Source: Deroplatys truncata (Eukaryota > Arthropoda > Insecta > Mantodea > Mantidae). Taken from it: a stretch of 64,000 nucleotides of DNA. The translations under genes were made by a program, and so were the position numbers. The first letter of the stretch is position 1, and each line of letters opens with the position of its first letter. The stretch is from assembly GCA_030765065.1 (NCBI GenBank), contig CM060984.1:101537488-101601487 (forward strand), in the 5' to 3' direction. Positions 7,871 through 60,399 of this stretch are shown piece after piece. Below the pieces are notes generated by a model. That model saw only the letters and a program-made list of their open reading frames with translations, was not told the origin of the DNA and did no database searches.

Positions 7871-8390
7871 TTTACTTTCTCTACCACTATCTATTGTAAC
7901 TTGTATTCCACCCAAAAATTTGATAACCGGATTTCGCCGGAAGTACACGTTCTGTGGTCCCCGAAACAAAAAAAGCACGTTTATAAAAAGCTCCGCGAAT
8001 GCGCTTATCCGTTCTGTGTTTGTCTATTTGTAAACAGAATAACTAAAAAAATTCGATTAAATACTAAACCTGGTGTTCATATTCAGCATATTCCAAAGAT
8101 GCGACATGAAGATTTTCAAGAAAATCTCCCCTCACAATACTATCCTTTACATGGAAAAATGTTCCTTACTTTTTATTTTCTCAAAAACAGTTCTAACGAT
8201 TTTGATTACAATATTAAATGTTTAATATAAAAATGTATATATTATATTTTCTTTGAATATCCTGTGACTTTCCTTTATTTTGTTGAATTTTGTATAGCAA
8301 GGACATTTAACAAATGGACAAAAACTCATTAAAATTGACAATTTGTATTGTTTAATAGCGTTAGCTGTTTTCGAAATATTCCATGTTGCA
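7871..8390 (+). repeat. Family M repeat, 3'-truncated
   Basis: It starts with the family end 'TTACTTTCTCTACCAC', then 'ttccacccaaaaatttgata', 'cagaataactaaaaaaattc' at the usual microsatellite site (here lacking a long run) and 'gatgcgacatgaagattttc'. It fades out near 8390. A 123-codon open frame crosses it (7859-8230), but this follows the repeat and has no protein family signature. Confidence 0.75.
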
Positions 8391-14410: not shown

Positions 14411-15060
14411 CACGGCATAACTCAAAAACGAAAAGTCGGTTAAATTTAAGTTCAGATCTTCCAAAGATGCAACACAAAGATTTTCAAGAAAATCTCCCAA
14501 CTCCCACCATCCTTTACATGGAACATTTTTCGAAAATGTTTATTTTCTCAAAAATGCCTCTAACGATTTTAATTAAAATACCATATATTAAAGATATTTA
14601 CATGACAAATGAAATGTATATCTTAAATTTTCTGGAAATAGCCTGTGAAGTCCTCCTTATTTGGAAAGAATTTTATATAAACTTGTATATAAGTATAAAT
14701 AGTAAACGTTAAGCGATAGACGAAAACCTACTTAATAACAAATGTAGATCTCTTTAAAACACACAATTTATTTCAAACAACCATTTCCGAGGTATCCGTT
14801 ATTAATGGTTGAGATTGTTTAATATTCTGTTATTCTTTAAAGTGCTGTCGACATTCACTTGTTTCCCGCGAATGCACGAAACAGTATGGAATTTTAAGGC
14901 CAGTAAATAGCGTCCAATTCTTCAACATTTATACCCTAACGAAATGTGTAATGTAGCTATTTCTGCAAAGGTTTATCTCGATTAAATAGACAAATAAGCT
15001 TTCGTAAGAATAATTTTTATACCCACTAATAAACGATAATGGATAGAGAAAGGCATGCAG
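14185..15060 (+). repeat. Family M repeat with (GT)n(GA)n
   Basis: It begins around 'ttctactacgtacacaggaa' and continues with 'aaaattcgataccgagattt', then the microsatellite site at 14335-14410, which here holds a GT run, 'ccgtccgtgt', another GT run and a GA run. After that comes 'cataactcaaaaacgaaaag' and the standard body to about 15060. The 120-, 130- and 73-codon open frames across the run are low-complexity artefacts. Confidence 0.85.
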
Positions 15061-22927: not shown

Positions 22928-22937
<10 letters not shown>

Positions 22938-22961
<24 letters not shown>

Positions 22962-23320
22962 TACAGAGTGAAGCATTTAAGTTGGAGATTGTGCAATACC
23001 TCCAAAAGTAAGCGTTGTAGAAAGAAATGTCTTGAATAAAAGTTGTTTGATATTGTGGGGGAAAGTAAATGCCATTAGTCGTGTTTTGTTTGGAGGACGT
23101 TATTATAGTCATTTTAGGGACAATTTAATTTTTTTATGGAAACTTACAATTAGGGTCAAATTAAATTGACCCTAAAATAACTAACATTACATCCTCCAAA
23201 CAAAATACGACTAATGGCATTTACTTTCCCCCATAATGCCAAGCAACTTTTATTAAAAACATTTCTTACTACAACGTTTAGTTTTGTAGATATTGTACAG
23301 TTCTCAACTTAAATGATCCA

Positions 23321-23361
<41 letters not shown>
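22938..23361. repeat. Palindromic foldback element between (AC)n and (TA)n
   Basis: Two inverted arms of about 165 bp lie at 22967-23135 and 23156-23325. The innermost parts are strongest: 'gggggaaagtaaatgccatt' and 'tttgtttggagga' reappear reverse-complemented. The outer ends are 'gcatttaagttggaga' and, inverted, 'tcatttaagttgagaa'. The left arm is preceded by (AC)n (22938-22961) and the right is followed by (TA)n (23324-23361). There is no coding content. This is a foldback-type MITE with microsatellites at each tip. Confidence 0.8.
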
Positions 23362-29964: not shown

Positions 29965-31480
29965 ATCTACCTCCGTATCCAGTCCTACTATTGCTACTAA
30001 CACCAGTAACCTTCAACTGAGGATGGGAATGATTTGTTCTCAAATTTGAAAATATAGGAATTTTAAAAAGTGAGTGTGATACTGTGTGATAAAATAGACT
30101 TGAATAATTTGTAAATTATTATAAGCTTTACTGTTACTAACTTCTTCCAATTTACACAGCACCGAGTTTCATTTCCAGTCTGTGTATTGTACAAAAATAT
30201 CATTATCTTGATGATTTCAGGAAACAACACTTTTGGAACCAAATCTTGAGATATGTAATGCATGTTTAAACATCTGTGAAGAATTGTGTGAACCTTTCAA
30301 CTAAAAATCCAACCTTTGCTGAGGTTGCCTCAATAGTCTTCCTTCTCTCAACCCACATGTGTATATTGTCAATATTTGATACATTTATTGTAGTTGTTGG
30401 TTGACAGATCTGCAAGACTTGGGTGCTTTCATGGGTTTACTGAAACATTACACCAGGCATAACAAACCATAATAAAGCTGGGGTTTTTCCATTGCTGCAT
30501 CACCGTAAGCTTATTTGAGCAGTTTTAATGGTCCTGAAGAAGATATGTGTAATTCAACACAAAACTTTATTAATACAATTTTGTGCTTTATAATATTATA
30601 CTTCATACACATCAAGAACAAAACTTTATGACAGAGTTGCTAGCTGCCATTAAACACAGCATACCAACATGCACAAACAACATAACTGATTGCCATGCAC
30701 AGAACAAAATTATGATCATGAATGTTAACAACATAGAAAAATATCCCTTACTGTTGTTTACATTAAAAATGAAAATATAATACCTCAGGAATCTTTTGAA
30801 GCCAGTACAGGTGTTGAAACAGTTTATCTTGAAAGTAACACATTTTCAAGAAAATAATTTATGCGGAATGTTTTATTCGTTTTGAGGGGAAAAAAATATT
30901 AGTTACATTTTATTGAATGCATATTTTCAAGGCCAGTACAAATTTTTTAAATGGGAATCTCATTTTTTTTAACAGATTTTGATTTTACACACACAAAAGT
31001 TTGAAAAGAAAACTAACGTCTGTGTTTAAACTGCATTTGTGTTTTCTTAAATTCAAACAAATGAAATGAGTTAAGTCTTTCCATGTATCAAGGTTAATAA
31101 TGTTTTCAAACTTCTTAAATATTTTATAAAATAATCATTACATAAAAAAATGTTTCAGGAAAGTTTTTGCTTTTATGCATAAAACCAAAGTCTGTTAAAA
31201 ATACTGAGTTCCCATTTAGAAACATGAGCTGACAATGAAACGATGTTGAAAATATGTAGCAAATGAAATCCAATAACATTGTTTTGCCCCTTCAAATTAA
31301 GGGACACTCACCAATGTTTTCTCGAAAATGTAATACTTTTAAGTTAATCAGCTGGAAAGTTAAAAGATAGAGCTGACCATGAAAATATGCACTAAATAAA
31401 ATGCACCAATCAAGAAGGTTACTATAATCAGCGCAACAGTTCTAGACACGTGAAAATCTTAATGAGAGCTATGATGCGAG
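29965..31480. other. AT-rich sequence, nothing recognised
   Basis: No coding or repeat feature that I can support; some of it may be 3' sequence of the transposon at 31.5 kb. Confidence 0.4.
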
Positions 31481-31589
31481 TTGCTTACCAGATCAGGTGG
31501 TGACCGGTCGACTGCACACTGCAGGAGTGCGTTGGACAGTCGTCAAATATCCTCACCGGTTATGCACTGCTTTGCGCTGATAAACTTAG

Positions 31590-33189
31590 TTATATACAGT
31601 ATATTAAAATCCACGCTGTAAAAAGCGCTTTAATATAAAAAACACTGTCAATCATTGCCTCCAATTCTTCCACACATAACAACCCTTCCTCTTCTGCGGA
31701 ATCACTCACATTATTGCCGTCATCGCTGCTGTCACTACTTTCTGCACCATTATCTTGGATGAGAATTCTTTCTATTTGATTTTCTGTAATTCCGTATTTT
31801 TCGAAATAATGATTCTTAATTTATTCAACATGTCGACATACATTTTCCCATTCTGGCCTTCCAATTTCAGCAAATTGCTGGCGTTATAACTGCTCCACAT
31901 ATTTTAATTTAAAAGTCATATTTCTGCATGCCACCCATTTTTTGATATCAGCCCAGATTAATTCGATTGGGTTTAGATCTGGGTGATGCGATGGCAGTCT
32001 AAGTACATTATGGCGATGTATTACTATCTGGTCAAGTATGTATGACGTCTGAAGCTGTTTGTTGGTTTTAATTAAGTTATATAGCTTTGTTTTACTCATG
32101 CTTTCATCTAAAGCTATATTATGTCTGAGTAACCAAGCTCTCATTTCTTCTTTCAATGAATTTGAGGTAGGTGGTTTGTCAATTGAGTGTTGACGCATTG
32201 TGAAGCATTGTCGATGACCAGAACAGACCCAGCAGGCATACTAGGTCTCAACATGGCGTTGATTCACTTCATGTACTTTTCTGTATTCATTTCTTGATGA
32301 AAATCTCCTGTTGTTTTTGCAACTTGCCGATCTCTCCAACAGCATGAACGAATAATAAGTATTTGCCCTTTAGCAACAGGAACCTGCAACCTAATTCGCT
32401 ATCGTCAATCCAACTTTTAGATGCTGTACGACTGCTGTGTATGTATGACTCATCTTCATACACTATAGTATTTTTCTGAAATTTGTAGCACCACCTTAAA
32501 AATTGATGCTGATATAAGTACATATAAAATTATACTCATTTGGAAAGGTAGAATCAGACTGAAAAATTCAATGCCATAGCCGGGATTTGAACCACGGATC
32601 TTAGGCTTTCCGTGCCGTTGCTCTAACTGACTAAGCTATCATGGCAACATATACATTTTATTTTATTATTTTATTTATTTATTTTGCTTTTCTGTTAGAA
32701 CTCTTCTATTTGATTTCGGTTTCTTCCATTTGAACCCTAAATCTTTAATAATTTTTCTGAGATTTGTAGCACCACCTTGAAAGTTTCTGCTGTCTTTCAG
32801 CTGGATGAGCAATCTGCTTATTATTAGCACAGTTTTTTCTTCCACATAGGAATTGTGCATCGTGCGCCGAATGATGCATTCGAAATCGTCTATTTCTGTA
32901 ATACGTTTAGGGACCTTATGTTTCTTCCCAGGTGTGTCAAATGGTACTCTTTCATCCATATGTTCTTTTTTCTTATCTTTGAGAACTCTGGAATCGGAAC
33001 TCGGTGAAACACCAGTTGCTTTGACTACTCTTTCTTTCATTCTCTTAAGGCTTTTGTGGAACTCGGATGAACATATATTTTCTTCCTTCATCTCTGCTTC
33101 TTGCTTCAGAAGTCGAGGACATTTGCAATTATTTCCCTACTTTGACTACGTAACACCTTACCACTTAACTTTGAAAACATAGGAGCCAT
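31590..33189 (-). pseudogene. IS630/Tc1/mariner-type transposase relic, DD82E spacing
   Basis: The ancestral frame runs from ATG 33189 to TAA 31590. In order: N-terminal 'KLSGKVLRSQSREIIANV'; a frameshift; a helix-turn-helix region ending 'VPFDTPGKKHKVPKRI'; 'GATNLRKIIKDLGFKWKK'. A SINE then interrupts the frame. Next come 'NTIVYEDESYIHSS' (first catalytic D at about 32454), 'SVLVIDNAS' (second D at 32212) and 'HPDLNPIELIWADIKKW' (E at 31964). Between the second D and the E lie 245 nt, so 82 residues once a one-base loss is allowed for. Two stops follow, then an acidic tail 'SSDSSDDGNNVSDSAEEE'. Such transposases cut and paste DNA at TA. DD82E is the spacing I recall for the 'Sailor' group. 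It cannot be active: at least two frameshifts, two stops and the SINE. The same protein type recurs at 57.5 kb. Confidence 0.85.
32530..32665 (-). repeat. tRNA-derived SINE-3, inserted in transposase
   Basis: Minus strand: 'ATGATAGCTTAGTCAGTTAG' (A box) and 'GTGGTTCAAATCCCGG' (B box) at tRNA spacing, then 'ctatggcattgaatttttc' and 'agtctgattctacctttcc'. The same element is at 44040-44170. 'acatata' flanks both sides and may be the target duplication. The insert separates 'LTEKQNK' from 'YLYQHQF' of the transposase. Confidence 0.85.
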
Positions 33190-33343
33190 GGTTATAAATA
33201 TAACAAATATAAAATAAGTACTATTTAGATACTGCAGCTCTCTTTAAAATTACAACCAGATGCAGACACTTTCTATGCAGACTGTATGTGTTACGCACTG
33301 TGAGCAAGCAAAGGTATTATATCGCTTTCGTTGATAAAGCTAA

Positions 33344-33380
33344 ACATAAACCATTCCTAGGCTCGGCAGCTGGGTTGGCA
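33344..33380. other. Junction of two head-to-head transposons
   Basis: 'TAGGCTCGGCAGCTGGG' here is almost identical to 'TAGGCTCGGCAACTGGG' at 58425, just beyond the start of the related copy at 57.5 kb, while the flanks differ. It is therefore likely to be part of an element end. 'GGCAATCAAGG' next to it resembles the end of the element at 59516. The exact break between the minus-strand and plus-strand copies cannot be fixed by eye. Confidence 0.5.
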
Positions 33381-34741
33381 ATCAAGGTCACGGTTCCAGA
33401 AGTTTTGCGCGAGTAATAACCACGTGGCACAAAGCTTTAAATGAATGGGAGGGGATGAAAACGTCACAGCGGTCGTCATAGCAATCATTAGGACCAATTA
33501 GAACTAAGAAGTTTCCATAGCAACGATAGATGCAAATGCCTTGTTGTGATATCATAACACGTGATTGGCATGACATGCCGGGCGAGCGACCGTTGCAGTA
33601 AACATGAACTGCAGTCTTATCTTCTGCTGTCACTGCAGTTATAAACAATGTCCTCCTTTTAGCCCCAGCTTGCTTATGTTTTTGTATCAGTTTAGAGATT
33701 GACTGCACACTGAAACGTTCTTTTGCATCGTCCTATTTTATGGTATTTGCCTTGTGTTACGTGCTTTGAGTCTGTGTATTTGTGCTTGCGTGTGTTGTGT
33801 GAGCATTTATAATTGTGTTAACACGTTCAATGGATATTTAATAATGTCCAAAAATAGTGACAAAGATAGTGCAGCCAAACGAAAAACTGAGCGCACTCAG
33901 GAACCAAACAAAACTGTATTTGGTAAAGGTATCCCAATTAAAGGATAGGCGTGGGAAATAATATGCTCTGTGAGAGAATATTTCCAAGAGGAGAAAATAA
34001 TTCAGTGGCTTGTTTGCCACAATATACCGGTGAAGGAGGGACCGAAGAAAAATGAACTACTGGAACTTTTGAAAGCAAACAAACCGTGGTTTCCAAGTTA
34101 TGTAGGCAATGGCATTGCTGCAGAACATCGTCACAAAATAATTAGGCTTCCTCCATATCATTGTCATTTTAACTCGTATTAATTTGGGCCGACATAAAGG
34201 GTTATGTTGTGCGAAACAATAAAGGTTTCACTGTTTCGTCAGTAATAAAGCTTAAGAAGAGGCACTAACAGCAGTAAAAGCTGAAAACTCGTACAAAGAG
34301 TGTAATAAGTGCAGCTTGGGAAAATTAAGGAGTTTTGGAAGAAACTATAGAACAGCTTGTCATTTCTGTGGGGAATTCTAGCAGCTCTTCAGATGATGAC
34401 GACGGTGGCAACATTGTCTATCAAACGAGCAGCAGCAGCAGTGATTCGGAAAGATGGCATTTTTTCCATTAGAATAAGCATCAATATTTCACAGGTATGT
34501 CTCTTCTGTTAACGCAAGTTTTTACACTGATATATTCTTGCATTTTCTATCCTCTGCATGTAGATTCATTATTTAACAATTGTCTTCGTATACGAATATA
34601 AATAATACCTGCTCTACAATGCAGGTGCAACCCAGTCACCTTCAACATAGTTCTAGCACGCTCTCCACGTGGTCGCGATGAGCAGCAATGTCATCTCTCT
34701 CTCCCCACGAAATGTCAATCACCTTCTTGATTGGCGCAGAG
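33377..34741 (+). mobile_element. Internally deleted IS630-type (DD82E-like) element
   Basis: The right end reads inward from 34741 as 'CTCTGCGCCAATCAAGAAGG', followed outside by TA (34742-34743). It matches the ends of the 822-bp copy at 59516. The left end is degenerate. Leader and 5' sequences (33410-33900, e.g. 'ttaaatgaatgggaggggat', 'gtgattggcatgacatgccg') are shared with that copy. The coding part (33844 on) gives 'MSKNSDKDSAAKRKTERTQ', a TAG stop at 33946, 'AWEIICSVREYFQEE', and then jumps to 'IIQWLVCHNIPV', 'HRHKIIRLPPYH' and, after a one-base shift, 'VLIWADIKGYVV'. The whole catalytic centre with both aspartates is gone. The acidic serine-rich tail 'SSSSDDDDGGNIV' remains. A non-autonomous derivative. 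Confidence 0.8.
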
Positions 34742-34749
34742 TATAATAT

Positions 34750-39726: not shown

Positions 39727-40834
39727 AACATTTTATAATGAGATTTTAATTATTTAAGTTACAGGTCAGATTGTAATGTTCAATATGTTCACAGGATGCT
39801 AAAGAACGCAAGAAATTTTGAAACTGATAGAAAACAATGGACCTAAACCAATTACAAAGACTCAAATATGGCAGAGAAAAGAAATCACACTAGTTATATT
39901 GTACCTGGGAGATTGCAGAGCCTTAAGGCATTTCAGGAACGAAAATTTATAAAACATGTTTAATAAAAATTGCTAGGGTTTTATGTCCTCAAGAGGTTCA
40001 TAATTTTTAGTGTTTTCATATTTCCCGACAAACCATTCCAAACAAAGTTGAAGTGCTTATGGATTTGAAAATGACTGACTTTGTGAAGTTTTCTCTTGCA
40101 TTGGACGAGTACAGATGTAACTGACACAGCCCTATTGGCCATTTTCATTTGAGGTGTTGTTAAGGAACTAAATGTTAGAGTAATTGCTCAATTTAGACCC
40201 CTCTAAAAGGCAATACTACTGGCGACAAGATATTTAAAGCTCTAAAAATTAGTACTGAAAGACATTGTTCACAGTGGTCAAAATTAGTATCAGTTGTAAC
40301 AGATGGAGCAAAGGTCATGGTTGTGGGAAAAAAGTGATTGATTGGCAGGTTAAAATGTTTTTTCAGTGATTAAAGGTATTTTGAGCAATTCTGATGCTTC
40401 GCATTGTCTGTTGCATCAAGAATCATTTTGTGCCAAGTCAGTTACACTATAGTCAGTGATTGTGTTGTGAACATTATACACAAATCAAAAGGAAGTGCAT
40501 TGAAACACTGACAGTTTCGAAATATACTTAAAAATGTGACAGAATCATGTGAAGACATTAAGTATTTGTGTGAAGTTAGATGGCTTAACAGAGGCGCAAT
40601 GTTACGTCAGTTCTTCGATCTCAGAGATGTAATCGCTGGATTCATGAAAGATAAGGTAATTTATTATAACTTTACATATACATTATTCCCATATGCTTTA
40701 ATGTCATTTTAGGCTAATTTTAGTCTTATTTATCTCATTTTAGGGAATGGATATTTAGGAATTAAATAATGAGGCCTGAGTCTGCGACTTAGCTTTCTTA
40801 TCAATATGTGTATTTGCTTAAAGAAGCTGGAATA

Positions 40835-43613: not shown

Positions 43614-44030
43614 AGCATAACTCAAAAACAAAACTTGGATAAACACCAAACTCTTTTTGAGTTTACTATCGTCCAAGGATGTGACAACTACCCTTTACAT
43701 GGAAGATTTTTCGAAAAATTGATTTTCTCAAAAATGTAACTACAATTTTTATTAAAATACCACATGTTTAAGATATTTTCATGGCAAATGAAATGTATAT
43801 CTTGAATTTTCTGGGAATGCCCCCAAAAGTCCTCTTCATTCTGAATAAAATGTAAAATGATAAACCGCAAGAGATAGGCAAAATTTTACTGCACAAAAAA
43901 TGTAGACCTGGTTAAAACACTTAATTTATATCACTTTTTGTTGTTTGTTTGTCGAATGCACCATTTCCGAGATATTTGTTTGAATTGTGCAATACTCATA
44001 CTTTTTCTTAAATAGAAATCTGTTAATGGA
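43435..44030 (+). repeat. Family M repeat with (GT)n(GA)n
   Basis: It starts 'ttttacttttgctactatgt' and 'ttccacccaataatttgata'. The microsatellite site holds (GT)n then (GA)n at 43560-43612, followed by 'acagcataactcaaaaacaa'. The 3' third is lost where the SINE-3 copy begins. Confidence 0.8.
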
Positions 44031-52423: not shown

Positions 52424-53328
52424 TTTTTACTTTCTCTACTACGTATAGTAACTAGGGGAAGTATTGTATTCCACCCAAAAATTTGATACCGAGATTTCAC
52501 CAGAAATACATGTTTTGAGATCCCCTGAATCCAAAAAAAGCATTTTTGGAAACATGTCCGTGTGTGTGTGTGTGTGTCTGTCTGTGAACAGCATAACTCA
52601 GAAACGAACAGTCGGATAACACCAAACTTGGTATTTAGGTTCAGTATCTTCCAAGGATGCGACATGAAGGTTTTCGAGAAAATTCCCCCACCCCAGATTA
52701 CCCTTTACATGGAACATTTTTCGAAAATTTTAATTTTCTCAAAAATGGCTAACGATTTTGATTAAAATAACATATGTTTAAGATATTTTTATGACAAATA
52801 AAATGTATATCTTGAATTTTCTGGGAATGTCTCCAAAAGTATTCTTCATTGTGAACGACTTTTCCATAACTGGTAAACCATAAGAGATAGACAAAATTTT
52901 ACTACACAAAAAATGTAGATCGCGTTAAAATACACAACTTATGTCATATACATTTTTGTTGTTGAGTGAACCATTTTCGAGAAATTGCTTGTTATTCCCT
53001 TAAACTTTTCAATACTTATTTTCTCAAATGGGAATTCGTTATTCATTTTTTTGTCTTGGATATGCAAAGAGTATTAATCTGTGGGAAAGCGAATGGTGCT
53101 GCACCTAGCAACCAGTTATTAAGAGATATGTATGTGCTTAAAGGCTACTGTATTTCCAAATTGCCCTTGTAAATATATATCCCCTTACATCTACAAGAAA
53201 ATTAGCAATATGATAGACTCTACAAATGTTTATCCCGATTAACATGAAGTAGATGGAGAATAAGCATTTGTAAAAATAGTTTGTACAAGAGTAGAGAAAG
53301 TCATGTGAGTGTAACACATCAGATTTTT
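52424..53328 (+). repeat. Family M repeat, reference full-length copy (905 bp)
   Basis: The cleanest copy. The 5' end is TTTTTACTTTCTCTACTAC, and the 3' end has GTAGAGAAAGTCATGTGAGT then 'gtaacacatcagattttt'. The inner parts of the ends (ACTTTCTCTAC and GTAGAGAAAGT) are inverted repeats. The microsatellite site (52560-52585) has a TG run then TCTGTCTG, directly before 'gaacagcataactcagaaac'. No transposase or RT is encoded. Terminal inversions suggest a non-autonomous DNA element; I know of no name for it. Confidence 0.85.
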
Positions 53329-57599: not shown

Positions 57600-58440
57600 T
57601 CTGGCAAATATTCAACACCTGACAGCTCACTATCATGTATGTTTCATCTTCATATATAATCGGCCTTCCTTCGTCTCTAAACTTTTTAATGGCATGCAAA
57701 TATGAAACGCGCCATTCTCTTATCTCATGTCTTTCCTGTAACAAGACCTTATTGTTCCTTGTTTTCTTCCACGTGAAACCCATGTCACGTAAGATAATAT
57801 TTAAACTAGTGCTTCCCCCTTTAAAGTTAATGGAATCCTTAAGCTTCAGGAGCAGATTTCTGACAGTGGGCACGGTTTTCTCCTGAATATAAAAATTGTA
57901 AATTGTTTGCCGAATCACACACCTATCCAAGTCATCAATGTCTGTGATTCATTTTGGTACACGATGTACCCTTCCAGGTGTCCCAAAGGAGGTTCCCTGT
58001 TCCTCACATGTTCCCCCTTCTTTAATTATTTTACGTATTGTCCTCTCAGATACTTTTGTTGCTGTACTCACCCTCTCTTGCACTTTCTTCAATGGAATTA
58101 GAATATCGTCAGAAGCTGCTTCCCGTTTCATGAAGAAATAGACGTTATTAATAACTTCACGTGTTTGGCTGTGCAGTGTTTTTCCACCAAGTTTGCTTTG
58201 AATGGGAGGCATTTTAGTCTAAATAAGCAAATACATATACACGCGCACACACATACACACAAGACACAAAACACTAATGACAAATGCGATTAACAATCAC
58301 TTTCTAAAACTTGTAAAACTTAACGTACTGGCACCGAAGCGGTAGAAGACGGATGTTGCACGGTCAAAGCTCTCCACGATACTGGCCATTTCAGTATACT
58401 GCGCATGACCGAGAATATAGGCTCGGCAACTGGGCTCTAA
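57600..58440 (-). pseudogene. IS630/Tc1/mariner-type transposase relic, 5' half
   Basis: From ATG 58212: 'KLGGKTLHSQTREVINNVYF', 'FMKREAASDDILIPLKKVQE', 'VSERTIRKIIKEGG' (helix-turn-helix) and 'FGTPGRVHRVPK'. A single TGA follows at 57951-57949, then 'ITDIDDLDRCVIRQTIYNFY', 'LLLKLKDSINFKGGS', 'ILRDMGFTWKKTRNNKVLL' and 'GRPIIYEDETY', with the first catalytic D at about 57648. The copy breaks off right after it. Residue by residue it parallels the relic at 31590-33189 (for example VPKRITEIDDF against VPK-stop-ITDIDDL). A TAGGCTCGGCAACTGGG motif at 58425 is shared with the junction at 33358. About 230 codons with only one stop make it better preserved than the 31.6-kb copy. Confidence 0.85.
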
Positions 58441-59510: not shown

Positions 59511-59515
59511 CTATA

Positions 59516-60337
59516 CTCGGCGACAATCAAGAAGGTGATTGACAGTTACTAACCACGTGGCGGTAAGCTTTAAATGAATGGGAGGGGATGAATACATCAC
59601 AGCAACCATTAGAAGGACCAATTAGAACTAAGACGTTTCTATAGCAACGATCGACGCAAATGTGTTGTTGCGATATCGTAACACGTGATTGGCATGACGT
59701 GCCAGGTGAGCAACCGTTGTAGTAACATGAACTGAAATCTTATCTTCTGCTGTGGCTGCAGTTATAAACAATTCCTCCTTTTAGTCCCAGCTTGCTTGTG
59801 TGTTTGTATCAGTTTAAAGATTGCCTGCGTACTGAAAAGTTCTTTTGCGTCGTCGTATTCGTATGGTATTTGCCTTGTGTTACGTGTATTTGTGCATGTG
59901 TATGTTGTGTGAGCATTTATAATTGTGTTTAATGGATATTTAACAATGTCCAAAAATAGTGACAAAGATAGCGTAGCCAAACGAAAAACTGGGCGCACTC
60001 GGGAACCAAATAAGTCTATCAAGCAAGCAGCAACAACAGCGATGCAAGCGATTCGGAAATCAGTGGCATTTTCCATTAGAATAAGCATCAATATTTCACA
60101 GGTATGTTTCTTCTGTTAACACAGATCTTTACACTGATATATTCTTGCATGATCTATCCTCTGCACGTAGATTCATTATTTTACAATTGTCTTCGTATAC
60201 GAATATAAATAGTATCCGCTCTACAATACAGGAGCAACCCAGTCTACTTCGACACGCTCTCCACGTGGTCGCGATGAGCGGCAATGTTGCCTCTCTCGCT
60301 CCGCGAAATGTCAATCACCTTCTTGATTGGCGCCAGG
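59516..60337 (+). mobile_element. 822-bp IS630-type (DD82E-like) MITE
   Basis: The left end CTCGGCGACAATCAAGAAGG and the right end, read inward CCTGGCGCCAATCAAGAAGG, are near-perfect inverted repeats of about 28 bp. TATA/TA borders both sides (59514-59515, 60338-60339). The body equals the outer parts of the 33377-34741 element: the same leader, the start 'MSKNSDKDSVAKRKTGRT' at 59946, then a direct jump to the tail 'afsiriSINISQ' region and the same 3' sequence. The entire catalytic protein is gone. It probably sits inside the 5' part of the piggyBac relic that follows. Confidence 0.85.
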
Positions 60338-60399
60338 TATAGTAATGTAGCAAATCAATTAGCTCACTAGGAAGTGTATGGGCTTCTGAAATTACTTCA

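Follow-up and report, generated by a model that had tools for sequence, protein, structure and literature searches.

The 64,000-nucleotide window of the mantis Deroplatys truncata analysed here (contig CM060984.1, assembly GCA_030765065.1) contains, at positions 31425–33416 and with the transposase in minus-strand orientation, a transposon copy of a family that we refer to as S1. With a probability of roughly 0.85 we read it as a non-autonomous DD82E (Sailor-type) transposon that descends from a broken ancestor, has been mobilised in trans, likely by an intact family of the same genome (family A), duplicates TA upon insertion and carries, between the second catalytic D and the E, an insert that is probably helix-extension-helix (HeH)-like. 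The anatomy of the element, its ends, the many copies, the intact relatives, the spacing and the related empty sites are directly observed. While the type of element is already known, our results suggest that the young non-autonomous S1 family, the 2-bp TA duplication and the HeH-like insert are new, and the latter two bear on Sailor as a kind.

The element extends past the segment 31590–33189 in which the original prediction had noticed a transposase relic, and its ends could be fixed because S1 copies sit in unrelated flanks. It measures approximately 1,992 bp without, and 1,996 nt with, the flanking TA dinucleotides at 31423–31424 and 33417–33418, the putative target duplication, which in related empty sites is a single TA. 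In transposase orientation, S1 copies begin with TTACTCGCGCAAAACTTCTGGA preceded by TA, and end with GCGC(C/T)GATTA followed by TA; as judged by eye, these ends form imperfect terminal inverted repeats (TIRs) at 33388–33416 (5′ side, minus strand, TTACTCGCGCAAAACTTCTGGA..., with approximately 20 of 29 positions matching the opposite end) and 31425–31453 (3′ side, plus strand, TAATCAGCGCAACAGTTCTAGA...). Between them, transposase fragments whose reading frame changes repeatedly lie on the minus strand of 31590–33189: the remains of the N-terminal DNA-binding half (32678–33189, start codon 33187–33189, frame broken), as aligned to intact family-A frames; the first catalytic D codon (32452–32454, VYEDES), also aligned with family A; the second D codon (32210–32212, VIDNAS), as read on this strand; the HeH (LEM/SAP-type)-like spacer insert (32019–32180), as placed by Ish1/HeH segment matches; and the catalytic E codon (31962–31964, NPIEL). 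The latter lies inside a match to Pfam DDE_3 (E-block frame 31884–32240, E = 5.9e-07), and the E-block frame is thus no chance reading frame. The acidic Ser/Asp/Glu-rich C-terminal tail, which the original prediction had also noted, occupies its own frame at 31650–31820 (minus strand) and is the same as in intact family A. Finally, 215 nt at 32470–32684 (minus strand) replace approximately 64 nt of family A and consist of a tRNA-like stretch (32572–32645, minus strand; Rfam RF00005, 41.3 bits) and a 42-nt duplicate, 32470–32511 repeating the transposase sequence 32751–32792 at 88% identity. ARAGORN called no tRNA gene at 32572–32645, and the stretch probably derives from a tRNA-derived short interspersed nuclear element (SINE). 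The 42-nt duplication beside it far exceeds the usual length of a SINE target duplication.

To place this copy within its family, we searched the genome (4.29 Gb, 818 contigs) with the 118-aa E-block frame and obtained at least 150 S1 matches of 94–100% identity (150 scored of 14,178 first-look candidates). We aligned 24 copies (L001, which is the window copy, L002–L004 and L009–L028; 20 were picked from the scored matches, many of them top-ranking), and their Kimura two-parameter (K2P) distances to the consensus were 0.006–0.021, with a mean of 0.013. The 215-nt replacement with its tRNA-like stretch is present in 23 of the 24, L012 being deleted there, and the S1 consensus itself is split into several frames. 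Frame breaks in the shared consensus of copies that have diverged so little imply that the breaks were older than the spread, a sign of mobilisation in trans, and on these comparisons the window copy is one member of a young non-autonomous family. The term ‘relic’ is apt for the coding capacity, which is dead, but hides the recent movement of the family. Nor do we recover the ‘four copies’ of the original prediction: we find a single S1 copy here, the remaining related pieces of the window (57625–58131, 33419–34745 and 59512–60341) belonging to two other families. MITE-like (miniature inverted-repeat transposable element) non-autonomous elements combine intact ends, many young copies and intact helper relatives with the lack of a functional gene; S1 is alike in these traits, and differs by its size of approximately 2 kb, the mostly retained dead transposase gene and the tRNA-like insert.

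Intact relatives were found with a read-through query (X at the breaks). The first eight rows of this search, family A (L061–L068), are 75–78% identical over residues 1–398 and measure 1,864–1,884 nt. An uninterrupted 481-aa frame is present in five (L062, L063, L065, L066 and L068) and a 435-aa frame in L061, while L064 and L067 are interrupted by stops, and in L063 an N replaces the second D. The family-A protein (473 aa) has an acidic tail like that of S1. Families A and S1 share the end block CGCAAAACTTCTGGAATCGTG, and L061 even carries a left end of the S1 type. Judging from these shared ends, we guess that A is likely the helper of S1, and the divergence within A (K2P 0.024–0.040; 15 pairs, 6 copies) would fit movement of both families at about the same time. 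Several points weigh against this assignment: the S1 consensus is at a K2P distance of 0.107–0.120 from A, the choice of A rests on the shared ends, and transposition was not observed. As we picture it, an ancestral DD82E copy would have been broken by frameshifts and the tRNA-like insertion with its working ends kept; the transposase of intact relatives, most likely family A, would have bound the S1 ends in trans; and S1 copies would have spread recently, each insertion duplicating TA.

The intact frames also settle the spacing that gives the type its name. In all five family-A frames that contain both motifs (of 8 loci read), the gap from the second D to the E is exactly 82 residues, with the E at NPIEL; it is 82 in one frame each of two further long-spacer families of this genome (B and C, see below) and 83 in L069, a frame from a bacterial assembly. 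The second D codon of the window copy begins at 32212 and its E codon at 31964, so that 245 nt lie between them and their starts are 248 nt apart, exactly as the original prediction had placed them across a frameshift, and the frame change falls between DNASQC and RQHSIDKPP. Across the aligned copies, the D and E codons are separated by 248 nt in 20 of 24 and by 245 nt in three (the window copy, L003 and L004), L002 not being matched by the motif pattern; the codon start distances are accordingly 251 and 248 nt, as compared to 249 nt in intact A. By our reading, S1 differs from intact A by indels of +3 and −1, with a further −3 in the window copy, L003 and L004. The apparent 82 of the window copy is thus a coincidence of compensating indels: the predicted ‘exactly 82’ is right as arithmetic and right for the intact family, but the window copy arrives at it by accident. 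By our own count, 7 of the 150 scored genome rows have the window copy’s 118-aa frame.

Relative to a DD34E-type core, the D–E spacer contains approximately 48 additional residues, which probably form a small helix-extension-helix (LEM/SAP-type) domain placed after the second D and ahead of the helix that precedes the E. Segments spanning the insert matched Pfam Ish1 in five of six cases (best E 5.2e-06) and HeH in three of six (best E 2.5e-04), as compared to 0 of 30 shuffles. The AlphaFold2 model of the window insert segment is likewise a helix-extension-helix (helices 6–19, 30–39 and 41–53; mean predicted local distance difference test score, pLDDT, 79.5). A Foldseek search listed T4 endonuclease VII on top (E 1.4) and also the CDNF C-terminal domain, neither significantly; we take both to be LEM/SAP-like folds. 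The insert resembles an HeH (LEM/SAP-type) domain and probably adopts its fold, and it may have a DNA-binding role. Several results count against it. Whole proteins stay under the Pfam cut-off (best 24.2 of 26.6 bits), the whole B, C and L069 proteins have no Ish1 or HeH match at E up to 1, and fold searches with the insert were not significant, with no HeH-proving family significant in the VIA-align or Foldseek lists. A PDB profile search with the insert returned four chains (best E 0.94), and a match to Mu-like gp35 (2out, E 1.9) was not counted; the full-length L069 structure model was discarded (mean pLDDT 43). A serious competitor, to which we give about one chance in three, is that the insert is a group-specific helix pair unrelated to HeH, LEM and SAP domains and that the Ish1/HeH matches reflect the chance likeness of a short amphipathic segment; the silence of the shuffles, the AlphaFold2 model and the folds listed by Foldseek favour the HeH-like domain. 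Our literature search for a LEM, SAP or HeH domain in a transposase gave nothing relevant among the titles listed. The Sailor paper (Shi et al. 2021, PMC8533490) gives D–E insertions of 13 and 36 aa and states that no homologous domain was found, and an HeH-like insert, if true, would lend structural meaning to the long spacer.

The second point that bears on Sailor is the target duplication, reported in the same source as predominantly TATA (4 bp), a description that stands outside the definition of the group by catalytic domain and clade. For 50 copies, we joined the two flanks and looked for related sequences lacking the element among those collected here; four insertions were informative, most copies having no flank relative in this set. 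The window S1 copy is inserted into an older Sailor-like element, S3 (described below), and 13 S3 rows from 12 places (L040 and L049 share one location) lack the insertion: TA is kept at the junction in all of them (GTTAGTAAC; in L046 GTTAATAAC) and TATA in none. The three empty relatives of L002 (L038, L030 and window position 40834) read GTTAG, with a left-flank alignment of just 15 nt, and the two of L019 (window 16868–16764 and L052) read GCTAACAATG; L059 was rejected as an L019 empty site as it has a deletion across the site. For the S3 copy L043, relatives show two bases between GATC and GTTAAA (TT in L042, CG in L038), not four, and not TA. Related empty sites thus show 2 bp, and not the 4 bp of TATA, for three insertions of S1 and one of S3. 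For S1, these sites indicate a target duplication of 2-bp TA.

The element ends suggest how TATA could come to be read. At the left, S1 copies carry TATT behind a variable base, and at the right most of them read TATA; family B has TA at both junctions in 12 of 12 cases, TATA on the left in 0 of 12 and ATATA at one right end. In family A, TATA stands at the left junction in 7 of 8 copies and at the right junction in all 8, and would thus be read as a TATA duplication if no empty site were at hand. In our reading, the outer TA represents the duplication and the inner one forms part of the TIR, and the published TATA, as extrapolated from the elements of this genome, is probably likewise a TA plus the TA of a TIR tip. 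It must be weighed against this that our empty sites are related repeats and not orthologous loci, that there are none for A, B or C, and that the empty rows of the window insertion hold, a few bases from the junction, 10 nt that are absent in the window flank. A duplication that is truly TATA, the TA-only sites being decayed relatives of TATA targets, would accommodate the junctions of family A and the report for most Sailors in PMC8533490; yet it is improbable, given that the empty relatives of three independent S1 insertions all lack the extra TA and given the left ends of S1 and B. The TA duplication that the empty sites favour is that of the other group members, and it would remove one feature said to set Sailor apart. 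A more general proposition is tentative: a Tc1/IS630-type core would have given rise to the DD82E transposases by acquiring, in the stretch that separates the second D from the E, a small HeH (LEM/SAP-type) domain that binds DNA; these transposases would integrate at plain TA, and the published TATA would be a misreading. We put this proposition slightly below an even chance.

As the original prediction proposed from the spacing, assignment of the window copy to DD82E/Sailor, a published superfamily, is well supported by sequence comparison. In our literature searches, Sailor was the topic of one paper and came up in five more. Sailor is defined by a DD82E domain (range 78–111) together with a clade of its own, and its printed motifs are I/VVYLDET, VIIMDNA and HCELNPIEL (PMC8533490). 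In a catalytic-core tree that excluded the insert, the window copy, three rows of A, and B, C and L069 stand apart from five IS630 and two Tc1-type rows with 98/99 support; the IS630 rows L070, L073 and L082 (first block incomplete) were omitted, as were L115 (frame broken after the second D) and L112. B, C and L069, recognised by the printed motifs, stand in for Sailor. Their motifs are closer to print (YLDET; IIMDNA, VMDNA or VLDNA; HCQYNPIEL, HCEFNAIEL or HCELNPIEL) than those of A and S1 (IVYEDES, VLVIDNA, HPDLNPIEL), which agree in part. In the Tc1-type rows of the same genome the spacer is 35 (L113, which has two adjacent D residues; 34 if the second is taken) and 34 (L114), and all 9 IS630 loci with readable motifs (11 examined, 16 fetched) have a D at gap 34, no D motif being found in L084 and L085. 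The reservations are that the tree contains no published Sailor, mariner, pogo or Zator sequences, that it warns of long branches, that the window copy has residues in 45% of the columns, and that YEDES and HPDLNPIEL of A deviate from the printed YLDET and HCELNPIEL.

Further traits agree with the published Sailors: insertion between D and E, a single acidic-tailed transposase gene, and dimensions (S1 1,996 nt with TA, A 1,864–1,884 nt, TIR of approximately 29 nt, A protein of 473 aa) within the arthropod range of 1.8–4.4 kb, 18–61 bp and 334–676 aa (PMC8533490). TATA junctions, reported for Sailor as predominant but not universal, occur in families A and S3, but not at the left ends of S1 and B. 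The differences are that the window copy is dead and non-autonomous with a tRNA-like insert, that the empty sites give a 2-bp TA, and that the TIRs of S1, A and B read here begin with neither GT nor CC, the usual Sailor beginnings according to the same source. With Tc1/mariner (DD34–41E/D) the element shares the DDE_3 core, the NPIE block and the TA duplication, and with IS630 the DDE_3 core and the NPIELIW block; its spacer of 82 and its separate branch in a small tree set it apart from the former (34–41), and the spacer also from the latter (34). It could be argued that we are dealing with a Tc1/mariner (DD34–41) element with a private D–E insertion, unrelated to Sailor: the TA duplication would suit this, the profile’s E block aligns with Sleeping Beauty (E 9.9e-06), and the A motifs deviate from print. 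We consider this quite unlikely, since the same insert, alignable over its full length, is present in B, C and L069, which carry the printed motifs and group with the window copy in the tree, and since the two Tc1-type frames of the genome have the short spacer. The extra length is indeed an insertion relative to DD34E, but one common to the whole long-spacer clade, which matches what defines Sailor; nor is the E misplaced by alignment, as the intact A frames put it at NPIEL. An old ordinary pseudogene, every copy having decayed independently after insertion and broken copies never having been mobilised, can be dismissed as very improbable: the window copy does have private changes (e.g. a frame change near 33100), but the consensus, from which copies in differing flanks on many contigs deviate by 0.6–2.1%, already contains the breaks together with the tRNA-like insert.

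Family B was searched with the L069 protein as query (99 matches scored of 19,532 candidates). By our own count, 53 of the listed rows have a 474-aa frame, 52 of these stop-free, and 25 share one score. Two of these 25 were read, on C5 at 141464758 and on C9 at 64270427 (L086 and L088–L090): they carry an intact 471-aa gene on different chromosomes and are identical over 314 nt on the left and over 2,079 nt comprising the gene and right end, the overlapping pieces spanning 2,323 nt. This identity suggests that family B has been active very recently or is so at present, and a genome with such copies, intact and identical over 2.3 kb, alongside a young dead family renders activity and mobilisation in trans testable. 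Family C is represented by one copy read (L087), with a 519-aa frame.

L069 was found by scanning one genome per prokaryotic species (84,980 species) with two peptide patterns; among the 17 confirmed loci it is the only full-length Sailor, although other bacterial Sailors may exist. Scans of viral contigs gave no confirmed relatives, the plasmid scan only two Deinococcus records (IS630, matching at the E block alone) and the phage scan a single match (E 0.9). L069 is a 3,270-bp contig (34% GC) of a Bathymodiolus brooksi thiotrophic gill symbiont assembly with no other frame above 92 aa, and its gene is flanked by a 114-nt inverted pair (49–162 and 2269–2382) which, read as TIRs, gives an element of approximately 2.33 kb. 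As Table 1 of PMC8533490 lists mollusc elements at 2,220–2,465 bp (TIR 34–237) and bacterial ones at 1,379–1,437 bp (TIR 23–57), these dimensions fit the mollusc and not the bacterial row, raising the suspicion that L069 may be mussel host DNA in the symbiont assembly. If so, this would bear on the claim of transfer from bacteria made in that paper.

The S3 element that S1 entered occupies 31403–34745 (plus strand), with its tips at 31403–31424 and 33417–34745, and a deletion derivative with both ends lies at 59512–60341 (plus strand). S3 copies with frames read have the N-terminal piece joined to the insert and the E, both D residues missing; an open frame of this kind (N-terminal piece, HeH-like insert, E block and acidic tail) is present in many diverged copies (L041–L060; in the window 33949–34182). 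A third Sailor-like family is represented by a fragment at 57625–58131 (minus strand) with the N-terminal part and the first D (tblastn 43% identity, E 1e-31 for 57727–58131). Elsewhere in the window, a diverged repeat family has many copies in both orientations (e.g. 8060–8298, 14486–14775, 43742–43933 and 52618–52946), and 22928–23361 holds inverted arms of 204 nt, 81% complementary and 26 nt apart.
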